The position numbers and the translations under genes are program-made. The notes under the pieces are model-generated. The model made no database searches and was not told the origin of the DNA. It saw only the letters and a list, made by a program, of their open reading frames with translations. From Lachnospiraceae bacterium (GTDB lineage: Bacteria; Bacillota; Clostridia; Lachnospirales; Lachnospiraceae), in the NCBI GenBank assembly GCA_024690825.1, contig JAILOK010000003.1, positions 1-45,675 of the forward strand: a stretch of 45,675 nucleotides of DNA, given 5' to 3'. Of the stretch, positions 9,195-36,938 are shown piece by piece; position 1 is the first letter of the stretch; each line of letters starts with the position of its first letter.

Positions 9195-10805
9195 TTACTT
9201 TACGGATTCCTGATGAGCCTTCAGTTCCCTCTTGTTCTCATACATCAGGTGATCTGCGCGGTCAAAGATATCAGATACATTCATGTCATCTCCCGGCTGA
9301 TACTCAGCCATACCGACAGCGATAACAGGACCTTCTTTCTTTTCAAGATTCGACATTACCTTACTTTGAAGTTTATCCATTAGAATCCGTCTTGAAGTAA
9401 AATCCGTACCGCTCAAAAAGATCGCAAACTCATCCCCTCCGATCCTGAATACCGGACTGTGGTCAAACACATCGCAGAGAAGTTTTGCACATGATATGAT
9501 ATATTCATCACCGGCCTTGTGGCCTTTTGAATCATTTATCAACTTCAGATCGTTGAGATCGCAGACAGCTATGGCAAAGGGCAGATAATCCACACCCTTT
9601 TCGATATTTCCCTGCACTGACTGCTCAAGTTCCGTAAATGCAGTCTTGTTCCGTGTTCCCGTAAGCTCGTCGCGCCTTGCCAGCTCCTTTTCCGTATTAA
9701 GAGCCTTCAGATGTTCCTTTTCCTTCCTGACTTCCTCGTCGATATTCTCTATACAGATGATGAAATGACTGCCGTCACTCGCCTTTCTGGCTATCAGTCT
9801 GGTATGCTTGGATTTTTCGTGGACAACGAGCCTGTATTCTATGCTGAAGCGTTTCCTGCCTTCAAGTGCAGTGAGCAGATAATCTCTGTTTATGACAGCA
9901 AGCATCCTGTCCCTGTCCTTTGGATGAATGATGCTTGATATATTTTTTACGGCTTCACCGAAAAAGTCGTCGCCGGATTGATTGACTTTCAGTTCACCAT
10001 ATATATTATTCGAAGTAAATCCCACATATGATGCTGTCACAGTATCCACATAATATATGACATCATAGTTCAGCGCGAGGCTTTCCGCTATCTGCGTGAA
10101 TGTGATCTGATGCTTCTGTTTCTTTATTATCTTTTCCTGCTCCTTTTTCTCATCCTCTTCAACAAAAACATGGACCAGGCAGTTTGCGATAAAACAGCCT
10201 ATCGTATAAAAAGGAACAAACGCATTGAAAGTCTGAAGAACAATGAGCAAAGCCATCACTCCACCTGAAAGACAGACTGCAGCGTAATGAATGCTGTCTC
10301 TTCCGGTGGATCTGATCGAAACAAAAAGGGAATAAACCGTTATAAGGATAAACAGCAGAAACTGGGCAGCCAGGAGAATATATCTTCCCGACTCGGGAAT
10401 ATACTCTGTATCCTCTGTGATGGTGAATATGACGGGATAGAAAAAATTGATGATGAGATGAAGGATCACAAAACCAAAGATACCCCACCCGGCAGCCATA
10501 AAACTCTTTGCCTTGACGCCTTGCTTGTCAAGAAAAGCCACCACATATCTGGTCCATAATAAGACCGACAGGGCCATCGTTCCAAAAAACAGCACAGTAT
10601 CCGCGTAGAGAAGAACCCGTATCTTTAATTCCTCCAGAAAACCCCAGATAATATCAGCAATATAAAAGACCAGTATCGAATTCAGAAACTGGCTGTAGCG
10701 AAAATGCGGTCCCTGTTTGGGCTGTTTTCTGCCGTTTTTCAGTATGTCATAATTTAATATCAGGTGATGGATCACCGCAAGTATTCCAAAACTTGCGTAG
10801 AACAT
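9195..10805 (-). CDS. Multispanning membrane PAS-GGDEF diguanylate cyclase
   Basis: 536 aa. Residues 1-220 contain about seven hydrophobic helices ending in a charged EEDEKKEQEKIIKKQKHQ linker. Residues about 225-345 look like a PAS domain (YDVIYYVDTVTASYVGFTSN ... FSIEYRLVVHEKSKHTRLIAR). Residues about 375-530 are GGDEF: RDELTGTRNKTAFTE, AVCDLNDLKLINDSKGHKAGD, and RIGGDEF at about 454-460 with an intact signature, so it should make cyclic di-GMP from two GTP. The RxxD inhibitory site nine residues before GGDEF is absent (FDHS). GGAGG lies 11 bp before the ATG. It is separated from the sugar permease by a strong terminator. What the 7TM module senses is unknown. Confidence 0.87.
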   Translation of the reverse strand: MFYASFGILAVIHHLILNYDILKNGRKQPKQGPHFRYSQFLNSILVFYIADIIWGFLEELKIRVLLYADTVLFFGTMALSVLLWTRYVVAFLDKQGVKAKSFMAAGWGIFGFVILHLIINFFYPVIFTITEDTEYIPESGRYILLAAQFLLFILITVYSLFVSIRSTGRDSIHYAAVCLSGGVMALLIVLQTFNAFVPFYTIGCFIANCLVHVFVEEDEKKEQEKIIKKQKHQITFTQIAESLALNYDVIYYVDTVTASYVGFTSNNIYGELKVNQSGDDFFGEAVKNISSIIHPKDRDRMLAVINRDYLLTALEGRKRFSIEYRLVVHEKSKHTRLIARKASDGSHFIICIENIDEEVRKEKEHLKALNTEKELARRDELTGTRNKTAFTELEQSVQGNIEKGVDYLPFAIAVCDLNDLKLINDSKGHKAGDEYIISCAKLLCDVFDHSPVFRIGGDEFAIFLSGTDFTSRRILMDKLQSKVMSNLEKKEGPVIAVGMAEYQPGDDMNVSDIFDRADHLMYENKRELKAHQESVK

Positions 10806-14964: not shown

Positions 14965-16140
14965 TTACTGAAGCTGATCCTCTGTGTAATATCCGGAATC
15001 AAGAAGGATCTCTTTGTAGTTGTTTGCATCTGCGAATACGGGCTCGCAAAGGAATGAAGGAACAGTGATAACATTGTTGTTGTATGTCTCTGTATCGTTG
15101 ACATCAACAGTCTGTCCTGAAAGGATCTGTCCTGTCATCTTAACAACCTGGCTTGCAAGTGTACGAGTATCCTTGAATACTGACATTGACTGCTTTCCGG
15201 CGATCATGTTCTTTGTATTCTCGATATCGCAGTCCTGACCTGTGATGATGGGATATTTGCCCTTGTAGTTAGCTGCAAGTGCGTTCTCAACACCAAGTGC
15301 AGTAGAGTCGTTTGAGCAAAGCCATACATCGATATCCTTGTCTGTGTAGAATGAAGAGATTCTGTTCTCAGCTTCTGACTGAGCTGTCTCTGTCTTCCAC
15401 TCAGGAGTAGCAACATCGTTGAATGTGGTCTTGCCGGACTGAACTACAAGCTTGCCCTCGTCGATGTAAGGCTTAAGAACATCGTAAGCACCGTTGAAGA
15501 AGAAGCCTGCGTTGTTGTCGCCGGGATCACCTGCGGTGAACTCGATGTTGAAAGGTCCTGCTGCGTTGTCCAGATCAAGAGTATCCTTTACGTATGTACC
15601 CTGAACTGTACCAACCTTGCAGTTGTCGAATGTTGCATAATAAGAAAGTGCTTCGGAATCCATAAGAAGACGGTCATAAGCGATAACCGGGATTCCTGCA
15701 TCCTTTGCCATGTCAAGAGCCTCACCAAGTGAAGATCCCTCGATAGCTGCGATAACGAGAACTGAGCATCCGCTGGAGATCATGTTCTCAACCTGAGAAA
15801 GCTGTGTCTGAACGTCGTTGTTTGCATACTGAAGATCAACTTCGTATCCGGCATCCTTCAGCTCTTTCTCCATGTTAGCGCCGTCCTGGTTCCATCTCTG
15901 AAGATCCTTGGTAGGCATTGAAACGCCAACCTTGTTTCCTGCTCCTGAAGGTGCCTCTGCTGCGGGCTCCTCTGCTGCGGGCTCCTCTGCTGCAGGCTCT
16001 TCAGCTGCGGGCTCCTCAGCTGCGGGCTCCTCTGCTGCTGCGGGCTCCTCTGCTGCAGGAGCTGCTGCGCTTCCGCATCCGGCAAGAAGTGCTGCTACCA
16101 TTGACATTGAAAGAATGGCACTGAGTAACTTTTTCTTCAT
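14965..16140 (-). CDS. Sugar-binding lipoprotein (ChvE/periplasmic-binding type 1) of the ABC importer
   Basis: 391 aa. Signal peptide with lipobox LLAGC (lipidated Cys22), then a low-complexity linker of AAEEP repeats to about residue 67, then the receptor: KVGVSMPTKDLQRWNQDGAN, ISSGCSVLVIAAIEGSSL, AGIPVIAYDRLLMDSEALSY, WLCSNDSTALGVENAL and PIITGQDCDIENTKNMI. These fit the ChvE-like multiple-monosaccharide receptors, whose conserved IAYDRL and TGQDxD segments line the sugar site. The linker holds the receptor away from the membrane and across the wall. It is the first gene of the importer operon; GGGAGGT lies about 11 bases before the ATG. Confidence 0.93.
   Translation of the reverse strand: MKKKLLSAILSMSMVAALLAGCGSAAAPAAEEPAAAEEPAAEEPAAEEPAAEEPAAEEPAAEAPSGAGNKVGVSMPTKDLQRWNQDGANMEKELKDAGYEVDLQYANNDVQTQLSQVENMISSGCSVLVIAAIEGSSLGEALDMAKDAGIPVIAYDRLLMDSEALSYYATFDNCKVGTVQGTYVKDTLDLDNAAGPFNIEFTAGDPGDNNAGFFFNGAYDVLKPYIDEGKLVVQSGKTTFNDVATPEWKTETAQSEAENRISSFYTDKDIDVWLCSNDSTALGVENALAANYKGKYPIITGQDCDIENTKNMIAGKQSMSVFKDTRTLASQVVKMTGQILSGQTVDVNDTETYNNNVITVPSFLCEPVFADANNYKEILLDSGYYTEDQLQ
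15956..16048. repeat. 15-bp tandem repeat encoding the AAEEP linker
   Basis: Six consecutive units, consensus TCTGCTGCGGGCTCC on the plus strand; five of 15 bp and one of 18 bp (an extra Ala codon). The frame is kept, so unit gain or loss changes only the linker length of the sugar-binding lipoprotein. Confidence 0.88.
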
Positions 16141-27384: not shown

Positions 27385-28500
27385 TTAGTTTGTGATCGTA
27401 AGGGTTGTTTCCTTATCAAAGATGTGAATCTTTTCAACATCCATCGCAAACTTAACCGTATCGCCGGGTCTTGCAGTTGTCCTGGGATCGACGCGGGCAG
27501 TGATCGGGAACTCTTCAAGATCAAAATACAGGAAAACTTCTGCTCCGAGAAGCTCATATACCTTGATCGTCGACTCAAATACTGCCTCCTGAGGAAGGGT
27601 ATTGATCGTCATTTCCGAATCATAAACATTTTCGGGACGGATACCAAAGGTTACGGTCTTTCCGTCATAACCTCCTTCAATGAGTTTCTTTGACTTTGCT
27701 GGAGGAAGAGGAATATTATGTCCCGCAACTTTAAGGTTGGCTTTATCTCCATTTACCTCAACAACAGCATCAAGGAAATTCATCTGAGGTGATCCCATGA
27801 ATCCGGCCACAAAGAGGTTGCCCGGCTTCTCATAAAGATTCTGGGGGGTATCAACCTGCTGTACCACGCCGTCCTTCATAACAACGATCCTGGTACCGAG
27901 GGTCATAGCCTCTGTCTGGTCATGTGTAACATAGATGATGGTTGTGCCAAGCTTCTGATGAAGCTTTGCAATCTCTATTCTCATCTGAACACGAAGTTTT
28001 GCATCAAGGTTTGAAAGAGGCTCGTCCATCAGGAATACCTTGGGGTTACGAACTATTGCACGTCCCATGGCAACACGCTGTCTCTGTCCACCGGAGAGAG
28101 CCTTCGGTTTTCTTTCAAGGAGCGCTGTCAGATCAAGGATCTTTGCTGCTTCCTTTACCATCTTGTCTATCTCATCCTTCGGAACTTTGCGGAGTTTCAG
28201 TCCGAAAGCCATATTATCATAAACCGACATGTGGGGATAAAGAGCGTAGTTCTGAAAGACCATCGCGATATCCCTGTCCTTGGGTTCAACATCATTCATT
28301 ACCTTGTCAGCGATCTTGAGCTCACCTGAAGATATTTCCTCAAGACCTGCTATCATACGAAGTGTAGTTGACTTTCCGCATCCTGAAGGTCCGACAAAAA
28401 TGATGAATTCCTTGTCCTGGATCTCAAGATTGAAATCCTTCACGGCTTCAAATCCGTTGGGATAAACCTTGCATACATTTTTTAATGATAAACCTGCCAT
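27385..28500 (-). CDS. Multi-sugar ABC importer ATPase, orphan (MsmX/MsmK/UgpC type)
   Basis: 371 aa from ATG 28500 (AGGAGG 6 bp upstream). Walker A VGPSGCGKST (residues 36-45), Q-loop VFQNYALYPHMSV, signature LSGGQRQRVAMGRA, Walker B VFLMDEPLSNLDAKLR, H-loop THDQTEAM, and a C-terminal TOBE/OB regulatory domain (FMGSPQMNFLDAVVEV; TFGIRPENVYDSE). No permease or receptor is adjacent. In Bacillus and Streptococcus such orphan ATPases energise many CUT1 oligosaccharide importers, so this is probably the shared ATPase. It is transcribed alone, between terminators at 28612-28670 and 27342-27367. Confidence 0.92.
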   Translation of the reverse strand: MAGLSLKNVCKVYPNGFEAVKDFNLEIQDKEFIIFVGPSGCGKSTTLRMIAGLEEISSGELKIADKVMNDVEPKDRDIAMVFQNYALYPHMSVYDNMAFGLKLRKVPKDEIDKMVKEAAKILDLTALLERKPKALSGGQRQRVAMGRAIVRNPKVFLMDEPLSNLDAKLRVQMRIEIAKLHQKLGTTIIYVTHDQTEAMTLGTRIVVMKDGVVQQVDTPQNLYEKPGNLFVAGFMGSPQMNFLDAVVEVNGDKANLKVAGHNIPLPPAKSKKLIEGGYDGKTVTFGIRPENVYDSEMTINTLPQEAVFESTIKVYELLGAEVFLYFDLEEFPITARVDPRTTARPGDTVKFAMDVEKIHIFDKETTLTITN

Positions 28501-28546
28501 ATTTTCCTCCTGTTTATCGTGTTCTTTTTTTGTGCCCAAACGGGAT

Positions 28547-28599
28547 CAGGCGGTTGCGCCTGCATGAATCAGTATAGCAAAGCACGTCATATTTTTCCA
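28547..28599 (-). promoter_or_regulatory. Promoter and leader hairpin of the orphan ABC ATPase gene
   Basis: Minus strand: -10 TATACT (28571-28576), 17-bp spacer, -35 TGGAAA (28594-28599, 4 of 6 consensus bases). Just downstream the perfect inverted repeat CAGGCG-N4-CGCCTG (28547-28562) lies at about +2 to +17, followed by CCC-GTTT-GGG. The repeat may be an operator or a 5' mRNA hairpin. Confidence 0.55.
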
Positions 28600-28611
28600 T
28601 GTTACAAATAG

Positions 28612-28670
28612 ACAAAATTAAACCCGGATATTGGTCAACATTACCATGTTTGCTGACTATCCGGGTTTAT
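28612..28670 (-). terminator. Terminator after the Cache-GGDEF gene
   Basis: Long hairpin on the minus strand: AAACCCGGATA (from 28668) pairs with TATCCGGGTTT (to 28620), with further internal pairing (GTCA/TGAC and ACAT/ATGT), followed by AATTTTG. Its T-tract is interrupted, so efficiency is uncertain. Confidence 0.7.
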
Positions 28671-28699
28671 TTCAATATTAAGCCGCTGTTTTACTGAGA

Positions 28700-31165
28700 T
28701 CAAAAATCCGTGTATCCGCTTCCGGGTACACCCTTAGGCAGATCGTCTGCCGGTTCTTCAACGGTCGGAGACTTTTTTTCTTCCTGTTTTATCTCTTCCT
28801 GCTTTATCTCATTTTTTTCGGAGATTTCCTCTTTTTCTTCCTTTACGGTCTCGGTTTTCTCTTTGTCAGCAGCCGTTGTTTTCTTTGCCGCAGCTGTCTT
28901 CTTTGGTGCTGTTGTCTTCTTTGCGGTTGCTGTTTTCTTTGCTGCAGTCTTTTTGGGCTTTTCCTCCGCAGCACCCTCCGGTTCCGGTTTTACATCCTCC
29001 GGTTTGGACATATCTGTCTTTGTTTCCTCGGTTTTTATTTCTTCCGGTTTCATCTCCGGCGTTTTTGTCTCTTTCTCAGGCTTCGGTACATCGGCCTTTA
29101 CTTCCTCAGTTTTTACTTCCTCAGTTTTTATTTCCTCGGTTTTTGCTTCTTCGGTCTTTGTCTTTTTTGCAGCCGCAGTCTTCTTTACAGTAGTTGTTTT
29201 CTTTGCGGCTGAAGCCGTTTTCTTTGCCGTTGCCGGGGTCTCTTTCTTTTCAGCCGTTGAAGCCGTCTTCCTTGCTGCAGTCTTTTTAGGCTTCTCCTCC
29301 GTTACCTTTGCCTCTTCCACGGGCTTAGGTACATCGGCCTTTACCTCTTCGGTTTTTGCATCTTCAGTCTTTGTCTTTTTTACAGCCGCAGTCTTCTTTG
29401 CGGTTGTTGTTTTCTTTTCAGCCGCAGCCGCTTTTTTTGCCGGCGCTGAAGTCTCTTTCTTTTCAGCCGTTGAAGCCGTCTTCCTTGCTGTCGTCTTTCT
29501 GACTGCAGGTTTCTTTTCAGCTGAATCCTTTTCTGAAACCTTGTTCGTTACTTCCTGCCCTGCTGCAGACGGAACCGGTACCGGCTTTGCTTCCACAACC
29601 GGTGCCTCGGGAACAGTCTCTCTTCCGTCTCCTCTTGAATCAGGTATCTCTCCTGCATTGTTCACGAAACTCCTGTCAAAGAAGGTAAGTCTGTTCTTGC
29701 CGTGTCTCTTTGACTGATATACAGCCTGATCGGCAGCTTTGTAAAGAGATTCAAAAGTTGTACCGTCCTTCGGATACATTGCCGCGCCGATACTTGCGGT
29801 AGCTGAATACTTGACATATTCTCCGGCCTTGAAATTTTTGAAGAAATCAGCAACTCTGGCTGCTTCCCTGTCGCGTACCTCATCTGTCTTGATATCCTTC
29901 AGGAATACGACAAATTCATCTCCTCCTATACGCCCGAATATGTCGGTGGCACGGAACTCCGTAGATATCTTTTCACCAAGGGTAGCTAACACTTCATCTC
30001 CGAATGCATGTCCCATGGTATCGTTGATCTTTTTGAAATTATCAATATCGAGAAGAAAGAACAATCCCTGTTTATCCTTACCCTCACCCTCCAGATAATC
30101 CTGGATATATTTTTCAGTGGAGATCTTATTCAAAAGACCCGTCAGAAGATCCGTCTCGGCCTTGCCCTTAAGCACTTCGCTCTGCTTATTGTAAAGAAGC
30201 TTCGATATCACATTTACGCCTATGATTATCATAAAGAAGAGCGCCATGGAAAGGATGACCCTGACGATCAGGTTTTTCATGACCTTGCCATATCTGTCGA
30301 CCTGTCCCGTTACATACTGGCCATGCACCAGTTCGCAAACATACCAGTTATTGAATTTCATGCTCCTGTAGACAAGATATCTGTCTTCTCCGTTCACGGC
30401 ACAGGTGACCACGCCGCTCCTGCCGTTTTCAAAATGCCTTTCCATCTTGACAACGGTGGTCTCTTCACCAAGTGTAAGTTTGGAATTGTCGATAATGTTC
30501 TCTCCGACATCCAGAAGCTTTTCACCTGTGACATGATCTATGTGTCCGGTGGCGTCTGTCAGAAGGTACTGTGTTCTGCCGCTGAATTTCGAGGAGGTGG
30601 GAAGTGTGTCGAATGTGTCAGTATTCACATACAGGATCACATATCCTTCCCTTCTGTCAGAACCTATCGGTGCAATGACAGGTATAAGGACATCTTCTCC
30701 GTCAGCAAAGAAATCACCTATTCCGGAACTTTCGTATTCGGAAAGCGTCTCATAGAACGGTTTGTCCGATATGTCCGCGGGATTACCGTGGCTGTCATAG
30801 CCCGATCCCTTCTCATCCACAACAACTCCGCCATGAACCAGTATGTTTGATACCGCACTGCCGAGATATTTCTGGGCAAATACCTTGTTTGAAACCCCGC
30901 TCTGGAGGCGCGCCGTCTCTGCCATGGCATCAGCCGTGCTCTGAACTCCGCGCAGCTGAAGCCTGAACTTGTCTCCAAGTTCGGTGGCGTAATTGCTCAT
31001 TTCGTTGTATGTATCAGTCAGGGCACTGCTGGTAATATCTTTGTTTGCTCCGTTCAGGCAAACGATCATGAATATGAGCAGCGCTACAGCGGGCAGACCC
31101 CATTGCATCACGCTCACAGATGTTGAATTATTGCTGTCGCTCTTTTTGAACAAATCTTTCTTCAT
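28700..31165 (-). CDS. Membrane Cache-type sensor diguanylate cyclase with histone H1-like tail
   Basis: 821 aa. TM1 residues 20-37, extracytoplasmic dCACHE-like sensor about 40-295 (GSGYDSHGNPADISDKPFYE; YVILYVNTDTF; DRYLVYRSMKFNNWYVCELV), TM2 about 299-323. GGDEF domain about 336-495: ETDLLTGLLNK, FLLDIDNFKKINDTMGHAFG, GGDEF intact at 414-418, and an RxxD inhibitory site (R405-D408), so a product-inhibited cyclase. Residues about 545-800 are an extraordinary tail in which Lys/Ala/Thr blocks such as AKKTAAAKKT alternate with Glu-rich blocks such as KTEEVKADVPKP, in three imperfect units of roughly 70 residues. Its composition resembles histone H1 and bacterial H1-like proteins (AlgP, PhaF, HctB). 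Predicted topology keeps the tail in the cytoplasm. ATG follows the DUF624 stop codon directly. Confidence 0.88.
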   Translation of the reverse strand: MKKDLFKKSDSNNSTSVSVMQWGLPAVALLIFMIVCLNGANKDITSSALTDTYNEMSNYATELGDKFRLQLRGVQSTADAMAETARLQSGVSNKVFAQKYLGSAVSNILVHGGVVVDEKGSGYDSHGNPADISDKPFYETLSEYESSGIGDFFADGEDVLIPVIAPIGSDRREGYVILYVNTDTFDTLPTSSKFSGRTQYLLTDATGHIDHVTGEKLLDVGENIIDNSKLTLGEETTVVKMERHFENGRSGVVTCAVNGEDRYLVYRSMKFNNWYVCELVHGQYVTGQVDRYGKVMKNLIVRVILSMALFFMIIIGVNVISKLLYNKQSEVLKGKAETDLLTGLLNKISTEKYIQDYLEGEGKDKQGLFFLLDIDNFKKINDTMGHAFGDEVLATLGEKISTEFRATDIFGRIGGDEFVVFLKDIKTDEVRDREAARVADFFKNFKAGEYVKYSATASIGAAMYPKDGTTFESLYKAADQAVYQSKRHGKNRLTFFDRSFVNNAGEIPDSRGDGRETVPEAPVVEAKPVPVPSAAGQEVTNKVSEKDSAEKKPAVRKTTARKTASTAEKKETSAPAKKAAAAEKKTTTAKKTAAVKKTKTEDAKTEEVKADVPKPVEEAKVTEEKPKKTAARKTASTAEKKETPATAKKTASAAKKTTTVKKTAAAKKTKTEEAKTEEIKTEEVKTEEVKADVPKPEKETKTPEMKPEEIKTEETKTDMSKPEDVKPEPEGAAEEKPKKTAAKKTATAKKTTAPKKTAAAKKTTAADKEKTETVKEEKEEISEKNEIKQEEIKQEEKKSPTVEEPADDLPKGVPGSGYTDF
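29238..29277. repeat. 40-bp exact direct repeat in the tail of the diguanylate cyclase, copy 1
   Basis: Positions 29238-29277 are identical to 29451-29490 (40 of 40 bases), offset 213 bp, which equals 71 codons. Part of the larger imperfect repeat unit encoding the H1-like tail. Confidence 0.85.
29451..29490. repeat. 40-bp exact direct repeat in the tail of the diguanylate cyclase, copy 2
   Basis: Second copy of 29238-29277. In-frame recombination between the copies would delete 71 codons of the tail. Confidence 0.85.
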
Positions 31166-31873
31166 TTATTCTTCCCTTATTTCCTCTGTATCAGATTTAT
31201 TGGTATCTCCGGCATCATCCGGCTGTTCTTCCTCTGCCGGCATATAAGTATCAAATACCCCTACCAGTATCCTGGAACAAAGATAAGCGCTTGCCGATAT
31301 ACCGAAACACAGTATCACGGGTATGACCCACAGCCCCCTTCCCGTCATCACTACCGCAAATATCAGGGCGGGAAAAAGAGCATTCGTGACTATCAGAGCC
31401 ACAGTCTTCGGGAAATTTGCTATTCCCATAAGAAAGGCATTTTTTACCGTATTCACCGTGGTGTTGTCAAATCTTGCAAGTATCGGATAAACATATACTG
31501 CTGTCATCAGAAGCAGGAAAAGAAGTATTCCCGTCACAACAAGTATTACATTTGAAAGAGGTATGGGTCCTGCGGCGCGTGTTGTTATTATCCTGAAGTC
31601 AGCCGCAAAGATGAAGATCAGAATCGCTTCAAATATCCAGATAACGGTACTCTGCCTGAAATTCATCCTGAAGGACTTGAAAAAACTCTTCGTCAGATAT
31701 CCTTCTTCATTCCTTACCATCTTTAAGGTCACATAATAGCAGGCCGTAAAAGAGGCTCCCGCCGTGATAACGGGTATGCAGCATAATGTGGTCAGCAGGT
31801 TGATCCAGAATAAACTTGCTATCTTATCCATGAAGCCGAAAAATCCGCCTTCCCCGCTGAAAAATTTCTTCAT
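31166..31873 (-). CDS. YesL/DUF624 family membrane protein
   Basis: 235 aa from ATG 31873; a TTG at 31900 would add nine residues and lacks a better ribosome binding site (GAGGCGG lies 14 bp before 31873, a poor spacing). Five or six TM helices. FMDKIASLFWINLLTTLCCIPVITAG and TACYYVTLKMVRNEEGYLTKSFFKSFRMNFRQS are the DUF624 hallmark. The acidic C-tail (EEEQPDDAGDTNKSDTEEIREE) is cytoplasmic. YesL genes often lie beside carbohydrate importers but the function is unknown. First gene of an operon with the H1-tailed diguanylate cyclase, whose ATG follows this stop codon without a gap. Confidence 0.82.
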   Translation of the reverse strand: MKKFFSGEGGFFGFMDKIASLFWINLLTTLCCIPVITAGASFTACYYVTLKMVRNEEGYLTKSFFKSFRMNFRQSTVIWIFEAILIFIFAADFRIITTRAAGPIPLSNVILVVTGILLFLLLMTAVYVYPILARFDNTTVNTVKNAFLMGIANFPKTVALIVTNALFPALIFAVVMTGRGLWVIPVILCFGISASAYLCSRILVGVFDTYMPAEEEQPDDAGDTNKSDTEEIREE

Positions 31874-31921
31874 TCTGTAACTGACCGCCTCAATCCACAA
31901 ATATCCACACTAACGCTTCAG

Positions 31922-32551: not shown

Positions 32552-33976
32552 TCACTGAAGCAGCTGCAGGGCCTGCTGAGGGAATTCATTAGCCTGCGCA
32601 AGCATTGCCATTCCCGCCTGCGTAAGGACCTGCAGATTCGTATATTCCGTCATCTCCTCCGCCATATCCGTATCCCTTATCCTTGAATATGAGCTCGTCA
32701 TGGTCTCTGCTGACGCATTGACAAAAGATATCGTGTTTTCCAGACGGTTATCATATGCTCCCAGTTTTGAGCGGGCTGAATTCACATACTCCAAAGCACC
32801 TTTAAGTTTATCTATTCCAAGAGTTGCTCCTCTCATGGTGGTAACATCAAGATCTTCTATGCGAAGCTTTGTCAGGCTCATCTCGGGAATGGAAAGTGAA
32901 AGCACTTCTCCCTCATCGGGACCCACCTGAAGCCTCATAGCTCCCTTTCCCGTGATCTCCATGGTAAAAGGATCCATAAATGTGAGTTTTCCTTCCGCAT
33001 TTTCGGTCAGCCCGTTTTCTTTCTTGATCTTTTCCCTGTCGATCTCAAAGGTTACTTCTGCACCGTTTTTCGATGTAACGGTAACATGATCAATGTCGCC
33101 TACCGTGTAAGTATTAACGCTGTAAGATCCGGCGGGTCCGAAAAGATCGGTCGTCTTTTTGATCCCGAGAGCAGATCTGTCGGTTGCGGAATCAGTAACC
33201 TGATAATCATATTTTACCGTGAAATTCAGTACAAGATCATATCCGTTGTTTGATTTTACCTGGGCTCTTCCGTTTTCAATATTACCTTCCGGCACTGTAT
33301 AGGTTTCAGATATCAGTCTCCCGTCAGGCTGCTCGGCAGATACTGTCACTGTATAATTGCCTGATGCATAGGTTACATCCGACACTTCGGGAAAGGCTGT
33401 TCCGAACACATCGTATACTTCTCCCGTAACACTGTAATTATCAAGCATGTACCCCTTGGTATAGGAAAATACCATGTCATACACGCCGCCCTGTGTTTCG
33501 TCGGAATAATTCTCAACCCCGGCATGAAGCACATTCCTGCAATATCCTTTATTCTCGAAATCTCCGTTCAGAAGGTTCATGCCGTTAAACTCGGCGGTTT
33601 CGCTGATCCTCGTGATCTCCTGCTTGAGCTGGTCAACCTCTTCCTGAACTATCACTCTGTCCGAAGTAGACATTGTTCCGTTTGCTGCTTTTATGGCAAG
33701 TTCACTCATCCTGATGATCATCGACTGCAATTCGGCTACTGCCGATTCAGCTGTCTCAACCACGGACATTCCGGTTGTCGCATTTGTCTTAACCTTATCA
33801 AGCGCTTCTATCTGCGCGCGCATTCTGGCACCTATGGCATAGTTTGCGGGATTGTCTCCGGCGCGGTTTATCTTGAAGCCGCTGGACAGTCTTTCGGAAG
33901 ACACGGAAAGACGTTTTTCGTTCTGCAGATAAGCATTGTTTGTGGTGTAAGCTGTGATATTACTGTTGATCTTCAT
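32552..33976 (-). CDS. fliC: Flagellin
   Basis: 474 aa. The conserved N-terminal D0/D1 segment reads ITAYTTNNAYLQNEKRLSVS, SERLSSGFKINRAGDNPANYAIG, ETAESAVAELQSMIIRMSEL and GTMSTSDRVIVQEEVDQLKQ. The C-terminal D1/D0 segment has NRLENTISFVNASAETMTSS, YSRIRDTDMAEEM and AGMAMLAQANEFPQQALQLL. The variable region, about residues 140-395, carries beta-rich repeats and is larger than in minimal Clostridial flagellins. Secreted through the flagellar export gate without a cleaved signal. AGGAGG 8 bp before ATG; the first 17 bp overlap the end of the large upstream gene, so translation is coupled. It is followed by the FliS chaperone. Confidence 0.96.
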   Translation of the reverse strand: MKINSNITAYTTNNAYLQNEKRLSVSSERLSSGFKINRAGDNPANYAIGARMRAQIEALDKVKTNATTGMSVVETAESAVAELQSMIIRMSELAIKAANGTMSTSDRVIVQEEVDQLKQEITRISETAEFNGMNLLNGDFENKGYCRNVLHAGVENYSDETQGGVYDMVFSYTKGYMLDNYSVTGEVYDVFGTAFPEVSDVTYASGNYTVTVSAEQPDGRLISETYTVPEGNIENGRAQVKSNNGYDLVLNFTVKYDYQVTDSATDRSALGIKKTTDLFGPAGSYSVNTYTVGDIDHVTVTSKNGAEVTFEIDREKIKKENGLTENAEGKLTFMDPFTMEITGKGAMRLQVGPDEGEVLSLSIPEMSLTKLRIEDLDVTTMRGATLGIDKLKGALEYVNSARSKLGAYDNRLENTISFVNASAETMTSSYSRIRDTDMAEEMTEYTNLQVLTQAGMAMLAQANEFPQQALQLLQ

Positions 33977-36746
33977 AGATAAAACCTCCTATAAATGCCC
34001 TGGCTGTAAGATACAGTTCTCTTGTTTCTATCTCTTCGCCTTCCGTGGCATTTACAGACGGTTCAAAAGATGTTCTGTCCGTCCTGATCACTTCCATTGT
34101 GACCGTTCTTTCATTAAACGAGAGCAGGTCTTCTATCCTGTTTTTATTACTGTTAATGTAGTCAAAACCTGTCTTTTGGCTGCATGTCACGATTCCCTCG
34201 GCAGCTGTTTTTGTAAGAGAAAACGAGGCAGCAACACGACCTAAAGTTTCACTCTCAAATAGTATATCGACATTTCCGCGTTTTTCGCCATGCCTTATCT
34301 GAAGATTTATAGATGTCAGTTCTCCGTTTATCTCCACAGGAACCTGATAATTCTCAGTTTCCGAAAGTGTTTTCTGGACTGCTGTGACCCTGTGTCCCGA
34401 CTGGAGTATCCTGATATCCAGCTTTTCTCCCTCGAAGGCCGCTATGATCTCTTCGTTTATCATCTCCTCATAAGCTTCGGAAAACTCCTCGGGTTCACCC
34501 ATCCTTTTGATGACATTATTTCTTGCTTCCTTCAGTCTGGACTCGCTTTTATCCTTTTCTCCCTCAAAGAGTTTCTTCAGGAAAGTTCCTCCCGATCCCA
34601 AAAGGGCGGCAGCCGCATTTATGTTATCAGCCGTTGTCTCTATGCCGTTTCTGTCCAGAAGTCTGTAAATTCTCTCCTCTTCATGCGCGGCATCGGCAAA
34701 TTTCTTTGCTTCCTCTTCATAATACTCATCGGAAAATGCAGTCTCTATCTGGGTGTCGATCTTTAATATCGTTTCATCATCTACTCTTTCAAGTCCGCCA
34801 AATTCATCGTCTATGATATAATCCATATGTCCGTGTCTTGAAGTACGAAATGAACTTAACAGATTTTTCATCGTAAGGGCCGAATCAGAGTTAAGCAAAG
34901 CTCCCACTGCCGCTCCGTCACTTTTTGTTATCTTGTCTATCAGCCTGTAGATTCCGATATATGAAGCCGCTTCTTTTTCGGTTATCTCTCCCTTGTCCCT
35001 TATCTTTACCAGATATTTCGCAAAATCCCTTTGTCCGCCTTCATCCTCATCCTGATATTCCGATAGTTTTCCAATAATGCTGTCTGTATCATGCTGCAAC
35101 GGATTTATGTTCTCACGGATCAGTCTCAGGACATTTTTCGGCGTCAGAAGCTTTATCATGTCATTGATCTTTGCGTCGGCTTCCTTTACTCTTTCGATAT
35201 TTTCCTCATCTATCTCCATACGGCTGTAACCAAGGATCCGGACAGCTCTCCTGTTTTCCTCATTTATCTCCAGTCCTGTTTCCCTTATCAGTTCGTCAGC
35301 ATTGCCGAAAGCTTTTTTGATACTGTCTCCGAGATCAGGTCTTACCTGAGTTCCGACAGCCTCATAAGTCAGGTTCATTTTTTCATACCTGTCCTTAAGC
35401 GCTGCCCCTTCCCTGTGCAGATCTGAAAGTGTAAGGTTTTCCCCCTCTGTGATCCCTTCAAAAAATCTCGTTCCCTCGAAACCGAAAAACGCAGTCTCTC
35501 CGATGAGTTCTGCAGGGGCCTTTTCTATATCTCTTACAACTGTGATAGCTTCTTCGAGAAGATCAAACAGTTCCTTTTCGCTGTTCTTTAATTCCTCGAC
35601 TTCATTTTCCAGTTTTCCCGTATCTATGCTGTAATCGGATCTGACCAGTTTTCTGTTGGCCTCGGATGTCATGGCCAGTTCGGTTTCCTTCAGTTGTCTT
35701 TCAGCTTTTACATTTCTGTAATTTCTGTACAGATATGCATCTTTTGGTCTTTTTCCGTCTGCGATGGCAAGACTCATCTCCCTTATGTCCGGGTTCAGGT
35801 CAATGGATCTGATATCCTTATACAGACGAAGAGATTCTTTTGTCAGCGGGATACCTTCGGCTATTAACTGTCCGGCGTCTTTCACTGTCTCTTCATCATC
35901 CTCAAACCCGGCATCTTTTATCACATCAAGTATCTGTTCCCGGATGGTATCGTTTGCATTTTCTATCGATCCGCTGCCCGCTGCGGCAAGATAAGGCAGA
36001 TCTTCATCATAAAAGTAGCCGGGGTGACGGGAAGATGCTGCATTACCTGTCGAGAACTGCGCCTCGTACAGATTGGATATGGTAGGCTCCATTGCATTTT
36101 CTACCATAAATCCTACAGCTGCGTCTGTAGGTTCTTTTAACATTGAAGCTATCTCAAAAGCCTTTTTAATATCTTTTACATTTTCTTCGGTAACCGGCAG
36201 ATCAGCGTTTTTAAGTTCCTTTTCTATACCTGCATCGTCAGGTACCATGACCTCTCCGGTATCCGGCCCGGTTTTCGGTACATCGGATGTGATCTTTGCA
36301 GCCCTTGTAACGGATCCCGTGATCTCTGACGCTTTGGCCGCTGAAACAGTATCCGTATAACCCGCAACCTGCACACCGGCCTCTGCAAGCTTTACCTTCA
36401 TACGGTCGAGTGAGTTGACGGCATCCTTTACCTGCATCTGTCCGGGTGAATATCCGTTTTCCACCATTTCCTTAAAATCTTTTCCGGACATGGTATTTCC
36501 CATTACAGCCATAAAGTTTCTCTGTAATTTTTCATCGTAGTTTTCCGCTTTTTCAAGTTCGTCCGCTGCCGTTCTGCGTTTTTTGCTGTAAGCATGTATA
36601 TCATCAAGGGCATTTTTTCCGATCTCCGTGAAAACTCCGGATGCACGAAAATCAGAAACATTTACATGTCCCTGTTTATCCGAACCCGAAATTTTCGGAT
36701 ACTGCTCCTCTTTTTTTATATCTGTCTGGGAAAAATCGATCCTCAT
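33960..36746 (-). CDS. Large uncharacterised flagellar-associated protein with FliK-like C-terminus
   Basis: 928 aa from ATG 36746 (GGAGG 5 bp upstream); an extension to 36878 reads across the leader and part of the upstream terminator. No signal peptide. The body is charged and mostly helical, with a recurring phrase of the type x(L/I)P-x-TEEN...: DLPVTEENVKDIKKAFEIAS, GIPLTKESLRLYKDI, GLEINEENRRAVRILGY and NGIETTADNINAAAALL. The last 150 residues switch to beta-rich YQVPVEINGELTSINLQI, LGRVAASFSLTK and NRIEDLL, recalling the C-terminal substrate-switch domain of hook-length protein FliK. It may correspond to the Lachnospiraceae family DUF6240, from memory and unverified. Its stop codon lies inside flagellin, so it belongs to the flagellar operon. 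Confidence 0.7.
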   Translation of the reverse strand: MRIDFSQTDIKKEEQYPKISGSDKQGHVNVSDFRASGVFTEIGKNALDDIHAYSKKRRTAADELEKAENYDEKLQRNFMAVMGNTMSGKDFKEMVENGYSPGQMQVKDAVNSLDRMKVKLAEAGVQVAGYTDTVSAAKASEITGSVTRAAKITSDVPKTGPDTGEVMVPDDAGIEKELKNADLPVTEENVKDIKKAFEIASMLKEPTDAAVGFMVENAMEPTISNLYEAQFSTGNAASSRHPGYFYDEDLPYLAAAGSGSIENANDTIREQILDVIKDAGFEDDEETVKDAGQLIAEGIPLTKESLRLYKDIRSIDLNPDIREMSLAIADGKRPKDAYLYRNYRNVKAERQLKETELAMTSEANRKLVRSDYSIDTGKLENEVEELKNSEKELFDLLEEAITVVRDIEKAPAELIGETAFFGFEGTRFFEGITEGENLTLSDLHREGAALKDRYEKMNLTYEAVGTQVRPDLGDSIKKAFGNADELIRETGLEINEENRRAVRILGYSRMEIDEENIERVKEADAKINDMIKLLTPKNVLRLIRENINPLQHDTDSIIGKLSEYQDEDEGGQRDFAKYLVKIRDKGEITEKEAASYIGIYRLIDKITKSDGAAVGALLNSDSALTMKNLLSSFRTSRHGHMDYIIDDEFGGLERVDDETILKIDTQIETAFSDEYYEEEAKKFADAAHEEERIYRLLDRNGIETTADNINAAAALLGSGGTFLKKLFEGEKDKSESRLKEARNNVIKRMGEPEEFSEAYEEMINEEIIAAFEGEKLDIRILQSGHRVTAVQKTLSETENYQVPVEINGELTSINLQIRHGEKRGNVDILFESETLGRVAASFSLTKTAAEGIVTCSQKTGFDYINSNKNRIEDLLSFNERTVTMEVIRTDRTSFEPSVNATEGEEIETRELYLTARAFIGGFIYEDQQ

Positions 36747-36876
36747 AAACGCCTCCACAGAGAATATTGCAGGATAAGTCCTGCCGGGCGGCGTCCGTGC
36801 CGATACGCATCTTTTTGAGAAATCCCTTTCTCGTATTGAATATATCGGCTGATAACCCGGATTTTTAAAGAGTATC

Positions 36877-36938
36877 AAAAAAGGACGGTTAAGACCGGCT
36901 CACTTTACCAGGTAAAATGAGTCAGGCAAAAACCGTCC
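36877..36938 (-). terminator. Terminator after the glycogen branching enzyme gene
   Basis: Minus strand GGACGGTT (from 36938) pairs with AACCGTCC (to 36883) around an inner stem CTCATTTTACC/GGTAAAGTGAG, followed by six T. Long two-part hairpin. Confidence 0.9.

Follow-up and report, generated by a model that had tools for sequence, protein, structure and literature searches.

A long block-charged, predicted disordered tail with a conserved terminal peptide on a membrane diguanylate cyclase of Lachnospiraceae

Introduction

The Pseudomonas proteins AlgP and PhaF have C-terminal tails that resemble histone H1; in PMC9239181, AlgP is described as predicted to be disordered, with Lys/Ala-rich repeats, and as associating with polyphosphate granules, and net charges of +55 and +35 are given for AlgP and PhaF, as whole proteins. 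The gene considered here lies in a 45,675-nucleotide stretch of DNA from a Lachnospiraceae bacterium (contig JAILOK010000003.1; the whole stretch is referred to as the window) and encodes a membrane-bound diguanylate cyclase with a long Lys-rich and Glu-rich C-terminal tail. A preliminary description of this gene likened the tail to histone H1 and to AlgP and PhaF, and proposed that it could tether the enzyme to the nucleoid, concentrate it by electrostatic condensation, or bind RNA or polyphosphate. Disordered linkers that end in a short conserved peptide are known from the C-terminal pentapeptide of chemoreceptors and from the SSB tail. In the open-access literature, which leaves most subscription papers outside, no diguanylate cyclase with a Lys-rich C-terminal tail at the nucleoid was found, and no title concerned a Lys-rich diguanylate cyclase of this kind. 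The enzyme is of a known kind, here with a long block-charged, predicted disordered tail that ends in a conserved peptide.

A block-charged tail with conserved ends

The ends of the open reading frame coincide exactly with 28700-31165. The gene and its tail are confirmed as real, and the tail is not an assembly error, because three orthologues (L009, L010 and L011) have a tail of the same kind. The parts of the gene that concern the tail are as follows, the limits of the Lys-rich blocks having been set by eye.

28700..31165, minus strand: whole gene, membrane-bound Cache-GGDEF diguanylate cyclase with a C-terminal disordered tail (821 residues, ATG start)
28703..29680, minus strand: predicted disordered tail, residues 496-821 (326 residues), from AlphaFold and composition
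29642..29680, minus strand: conserved tail start, residues 496-508, FDRSF[V/I]NxAGE[I/V]P (10 of 13 residues invariant in four orthologues)
29363..29518, minus strand: Lys-rich block 1, residues 550-601, net charge +12
29150..29290, minus strand: Lys-rich block 2, residues 626-672, net charge +12
28868..28960, minus strand: Lys-rich block 3, residues 736-766, net charge +11, with zero acidic residues
28703..28753, minus strand: conserved C-terminal peptide, residues 805-821, ending DDLPxGxPGSGYT[D/E]F (13 of 17 residues invariant in four orthologues)

Nearly all of residues 500-821 are predicted by AlphaFold to lack secondary structure, with a predicted local distance difference test (pLDDT) score below 50, and the tail contains 70 Lys (21%), 53 Glu, 49 Ala and 47 Thr. 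The low-complexity part begins at about residue 550, which is close to the 255 residues or so of the preliminary description, the whole extension being 326 residues; the alternation of Lys-rich and Glu-rich blocks reported there was likewise seen. Acidic blocks lie between the three Lys/Ala/Thr blocks, and these acidic stretches, also delimited by eye, have net charges of -3, -10 and -8; they total 142 residues, the basic blocks 130. Over the 326 residues there are 76 Lys/Arg against 66 Asp/Glu, a net charge of +10. In 20-residue windows, none of the 500 shuffles made for each of L009, L010 and L011 segregated charge as strongly as the real tail; in 40-residue windows, 27, 4, 15 and 0 of 500 shuffles did so for the window gene, L009, L010 and L011 respectively, and in 5-residue windows no tail was above its shuffles. 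The net charge and the shuffle results thus describe a blocky polyampholyte, not a polycation of the H1 type. Searched against PDB sequences, the tail gave zero matches at E up to 1, and no Pfam family matched the window tail at E up to 10.

The four tailed orthologues (the window gene, L009, L010 and L011) have tails of 326, 320, 339 and 307 residues with net charges of +10, +5, +4 and +8, and basic and acidic stretches alternate in all four. Among them the GGDEF domain has a synonymous divergence (dS) of 0.57-1.97 and a nonsynonymous divergence (dN) of at most 0.02; given this high dS, the genes are not young copies and the shared tail pattern is not mere recency. Besides the two tail ends, 153 of 157 residues of the GGDEF domain and 198 of 259 of the sensor are invariant in the four, as are, roughly, 67 of 296 in the tail middle.

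The coding DNA of the tail contains tandem repeats of 15, 18 and 36 nt; a direct repeat of 185 nt, with 82% identity and an offset of 213 nt, spans Lys-rich blocks 1 and 2. The best internal 90-nt repeat is 87, 90, 98 and 97% identical within the four tailed orthologues, whereas between genes the identity is 67-73% for all but one of the six pairs, L009-L011, which reaches 88% through a match in the unrepeated tail start. Given that repeats within a gene are more alike than those between genes, the modules were amplified separately in each lineage, yet tail length and net charge have remained similar. Another repeat-built segment of the window is a 15-nt tandem-repeat array at 15954-16068, inside an open reading frame (14965-16140) for a ChvE-like sugar-binding protein (456.7 bits, cut-off 460). 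Opposite the tail, on the plus strand, an antisense reading frame of 335 residues (28710-29717) mirrors the Lys/Ala/Thr/Glu codons mechanically and is not counted as a gene.

An origin of the tail by read-through past an ancestral stop, into the DNA beyond it, is not favoured, as the stretch that precedes the downstream ATPase gene (UgpC) persists in tailed and tail-less loci. This stretch, with its TATACT box, is recognisable in four tailed loci and in the tail-less L074. By one measure the spacers are also alike (158 nt for the window gene, 152 nt for L012 and L074), but the part near the stop aligns poorly, so that this is no proof.

Distribution of tailed cyclases

Strong matches to the cyclase occur in 25 of the 99 genomes searched, the window genome counted. 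Where the preliminary description looked to Lachnospiraceae for further GGDEF proteins with such tails, these were found: L009, L010 and L011, of the same genus as the window protein, are the only ones with the same kind of tail among the best 80 of at least 576 loci, which were kept from a scan of genome contigs, and L072 and L076 have a different charged tail. The L010 tail is identical to that of L038, whose named record is a Lachnospiraceae metagenome-assembled genome from water-buffalo rumen. The sister L012 (the same as L074) is 66% identical in the domain part and stops 17 residues past the domain.

In a tree of 82 rows, which omitted L038, L074, L015, rows below 200 bits and rows with a core under 440 residues, the window gene (L001), L009, L010 and L011 form a clade with support of 100/100, joined by L012 at 100/100. 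The second tailed clade, L072 with L076 (100/100), lies far from the first; its tail is of about 180 residues and ends in KFSFFS in both. The remaining 76 of the 82 rows end at most 31 residues past the domain. The simplest reading is two separate tail gains, and the tail of the window clade is recently acquired, in one small clade of one genus. The genes L072:3977-6010 and L076:3380-5461 have different long tails on an orthologous cyclase, one of them PAPA-rich, and both contain KKVVKKVVKKVVVKKV.

In the window genome, c-di-GMP signalling is not confined to this gene: 16 places match the GGDEF region of the cyclase, with 11 EAL and 4 PilZ matches. The tail as a general trait of this genome's cyclases was rejected, a long low-complexity extension occurring at just one of the 16 places, the window gene. 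Ten of the others end at most 7 residues past the domain, four continue (three of them into EAL frames, as judged on the first 80 residues past the domain) and one is a stop-broken frame. A second GGDEF protein of the window (9195-10805, 536 residues) is tail-less, and at G000:C24:7542-8435 (L003, L165) a GGDEF frame is interrupted by a single TAG stop.

Domain architecture of the cyclase

30338..30955, minus strand: Cache-like extracytoplasmic sensor, residues 71-276 (Pfam dCache_1, PF02743, 34.2 bits, cut-off 45)
29690..30160, minus strand: GGDEF domain, residues 336-492 (Pfam PF00990, 132.2 bits against a cut-off of 23.8)

The window protein resembles other Cache-GGDEF membrane diguanylate cyclases in having two membrane helices that flank a Cache-like sensor, then a GGDEF domain with intact active and inhibitory sites, but it continues for 326 residues past the domain. 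Hydropathy places the membrane segments at about residues 16-44 and 295-326. Between them, the AlphaFold model (65 sequences; mean pLDDT 71.3, predicted template modelling score 0.49) confidently gives an alpha/beta domain, for which the dCache_1 score is below the cut-off, and about residues 20-495 as a whole are well predicted. The GGDEF domain has its signature at 414-418 and an inhibitory I-site, R405xxD408; G414, G415, D416 and E417, together with R405 and D408, are invariant in all 65 aligned sequences (window protein included), a subset of the 87 homologues listed. Solved GGDEF structures were matched both by sequence profile and by fold, and the 50 matches listed for a fold search with the whole model include GGDEF-containing structures, which do not resolve the sensor. 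In the sensor, just eight positions (Gly, Pro, Tyr) are conserved in at least 75% of the 65 sequences. Judged by these residues, the membrane cyclase looks active and product-inhibited, as the preliminary description had it, and is predicted to make cyclic di-GMP (c-di-GMP) from guanosine triphosphate.

Comparison with histone H1-like proteins and other Lys-rich segments

The window tail is like those of AlgP and PhaF in being a Lys/Ala-rich and, by prediction, disordered C-terminus; the strong net positive charge was not found. Whereas AlgP and PhaF have strongly cationic KPAA repeats, the window tail is without KPAA, alternates its Lys blocks with acidic ones for a net +10 against +55 and +35, sits on a membrane enzyme and has a conserved C-terminal peptide. 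The H1-like profile HC2 (PF07382) did not match the window tail, and it scored 27.6, 17.5 and 17.7 bits on the tails of L009, L010 and L011, all under the cut-off of 40. These weak matches look compositional, because an unrelated family also has a sub-cut-off match in the L011 tail; of six further Lys-rich proteins in the genome, HC2 matches three as well, again below cut-off. The likeness to histone H1 holds for composition and predicted disorder and fails for net charge and for the profile.

A survey of the window genome with a single repeat pattern, KK[A/T], gave 32 matches against 17 for a reversed control. Of the 30 loci obtained, eight fall within the window gene; eleven others were read, and L141, L143 and two matches for which no locus was obtained were left unread. 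The eleven comprised six Lys-rich segments and five chance or minor matches. The six (L122, L127, L137, L144, L146 and L120 in G000) belong to a RidA-like protein, the FtsK N-terminus, a 110-residue Lys/Ala/Pro protein, an SCP2-domain protein, argininosuccinate synthase and a KKTEE-repeat protein. Four have 0-2 acidic residues (at most one in the argininosuccinate synthase and SCP2 tails), and the argininosuccinate synthase, SCP2 and FtsK segments have +0.31 to +0.39 net charge per residue. A common KKT/KKA repeat language links these to the cyclase, and the RidA-like tail, with a net +6 over 112 residues, resembles that of the cyclase in being a polyampholyte close to neutrality; in contrast, the argininosuccinate synthase, SCP2 and FtsK segments are nearly without acidic residues, and the proteins are unrelated to the cyclase. 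Given that this genome also has Lys-rich tails on unrelated metabolic enzymes, the presence of one is by itself no pointer to DNA.

Gene context

31166..31900, minus strand: DUF624/MusI-like membrane protein, directly upstream and probably co-transcribed (Pfam DUF624, 61 bits; NCBIfam MusI_fam, 113.7 bits, cut-off 160)
27385..28539, minus strand: sugar-importer ATPase of the UgpC/MsmX type, downstream at a distance of 160 nt (NCBIfam UgpC, 497.8 bits, cut-off 432)

Together these genes and the cyclase form a conserved Lachnospiraceae locus (27385-31900). DUF624 lies directly upstream of the cyclase in 71 of 79 loci, the ATPase adjoins it downstream in 55 of 73, and both neighbours are present in 48 of 68, counted over loci with at least 700 nt of flank and an adjacency limit of 400 nt, the duplicates L038, L074 and L039 being dropped (other near-identical loci may remain). 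L040, L045, L049 and L071 have a UgpC relative farther downstream, at 3.3-3.6 kb, beyond the adjacency limit. Both neighbours are common to the two tailed clades, L072 and L076 included, and to the tail-less sister; the ancestral job of the cyclase does not need the tail. The window UgpC is the sole close copy in its genome, the next two matches being 49 and 45% identical over part of their length. A promoter-like site precedes it at 28599-28571, in a stretch conserved among five loci, and such sites are no commoner than in shuffles; UgpC may be transcribed apart from the cyclase.

Because of the conserved gene order, the cyclase is probably linked to carbohydrate uptake. MsmX-type ATPases serve several sugar importers (PMC7658222), and in Bacillus subtilis a DUF624 gene adjoins YesU, beside a rhamnogalacturonan acetylesterase gene (PMC6120924). 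The open-access literature yielded no paper on a DUF624/Cache-GGDEF/UgpC locus, and a search for MusI gave only unrelated work.

Membership of the cyclase family in a flagellar operon was rejected, FliS being upstream in just L001, L009-L012, L038 and L074 of 87 loci; a terminator-like hairpin at 32038-32017, between FliS and DUF624, also counts against it. A large DUF6240 protein (33960-36878, 322 bits) adjoins flagellin and FliS and is kept in L038 and L074.

Discussion

Starting from the computed domains, predicted disorder, block pattern, two tailed clades, conserved ends and gene context, it is tentatively suggested that the tail is a flexible, self-associating arm that presents a C-terminal docking peptide, a possibility preferred to that of a dedicated DNA anchor. 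On this view an otherwise ordinary Cache-GGDEF cyclase of the membrane, encoded in a locus conserved in Lachnospiraceae, would have gained a long disordered tail in one small clade, the tail growing by tandem duplication and slippage of Lys-block and Glu-block modules. The complementary charged blocks may then weakly attract each other and nearby polyanions, so that cyclase dimers would cluster at the membrane, and the conserved terminal peptide may dock on a partner protein, concentrating the cyclase locally. Electrostatic condensation, one proposal of the preliminary description, is supported as one option, and that description missed both the conserved peptide and the DUF624/UgpC context. 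The chemoreceptor pentapeptide and the SSB tail share the disordered linker and short conserved end and may be likened to PGSGYT[D/E]F by analogy.

Several points weigh against a self-associating, docking arm. The disorder of the tail is a prediction, and the charge segregation of the window tail itself in 20-residue windows was reached by 25 of 500 shuffles, mildly beyond chance; the second clade is without notable charge patterning (reached by 235 of 500 shuffles in L072 and 50 of 500 in L076). In the middle of the tail the alignment is in part arbitrary, which makes the count of invariant residues there a rough one. The last 17 codons are too few for a firm dN/dS (dN 0.03-0.19, dS 0.09-1.29), and in one of the six pairs, L009-L010, the dN of the C-terminal peptide (0.11) exceeds its dS (0.09). 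Nor was a wider C-terminal motif established: the DNA pattern GGNWSNGGNTWYWSNGANTTYTRR had nine matches in 48 genomes of the genus, namely the four orthologues, one each in G028 and G011, and three with in-frame stops. The G028 match (L150, G028:C17:29890-29913) is the end of an unrelated 148-residue frame and reads GTGFWDF, and the G011 match, the end of a 37-residue frame, reads GSGYSDF; a longer pattern, searched in 397 genomes of the family with few congeners, matched the window gene, G100 (in a frame of 13 residues) and G442 (with an in-frame stop). The docking partner is putative, and the presence of Lys-rich tails on unrelated enzymes is consistent with a mutational habit spread across the genome.

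Another explanation is near-neutral low-complexity growth, in which Lys/Ala/Thr/Glu codons would have multiplied by slippage and duplication where the C-terminus is permissive, giving a tail of little function. The 15-, 18- and 36-nt tandem repeats and the 185-nt direct repeat agree with this, as do the absence of the tail from L012 and from 76 of 82 tree rows and the several unrelated Lys-rich proteins of the genome. Nevertheless it is rather unlikely, given that the frame is kept in four of four orthologues with similar lengths, that both tail ends are conserved despite high silent divergence, and that two clades of the same orthologous cyclase are tailed.

The remaining explanations assign the Lys blocks a ligand. 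Were they to bind chromosomal DNA as in AlgP and PhaF, and so hold the membrane cyclase to the nucleoid as first proposed, the three blocks of net +11 to +12 would be suited to it and the sub-cut-off HC2 matches to the L009, L010 and L011 tails would find a place. However, those matches look compositional, the whole tail is near neutral, Pfam gives nothing for the window tail at E up to 10, and acidic stretches that outnumber the basic blocks in residues would compete with DNA; moreover, the nearly acid-free Lys-rich tails of the genome sit on argininosuccinate synthase and an SCP2 protein. The nucleoid tether, though possible, has no specific support and is distinctly unlikely. The same charge argument would serve another polyanion, whether ribosomes or RNA, polyphosphate, with which AlgP associates (PMC9239181), or the anionic inner membrane leaflet that already holds the protein and whose surface would, by geometry, be the nearest polyanion. 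This is also unlikely, the near-neutral net charge standing against it as well, and the sequence does not choose among the ligands.

Taken at its broadest, the suggested self-associating, docking arm would make of this enzyme a membrane signalling hub: a cyclase of a sugar-import locus that on two occasions gained a charged, disordered arm bearing a peptide dedicated to docking, and whose clustering, through charge blocks and partner docking, would set the local c-di-GMP output; contact of the arm with the nucleoid or ribosomes would also be possible. As a whole this picture is improbable. The finding matters less for chromosome tethering, which the sequence does not specifically support. How a cell that has many cyclases confines its c-di-GMP signals is not settled, and the orthologues, which occur in nature with and without the tail and share a gene context, are a ready comparison for the function of the arm.

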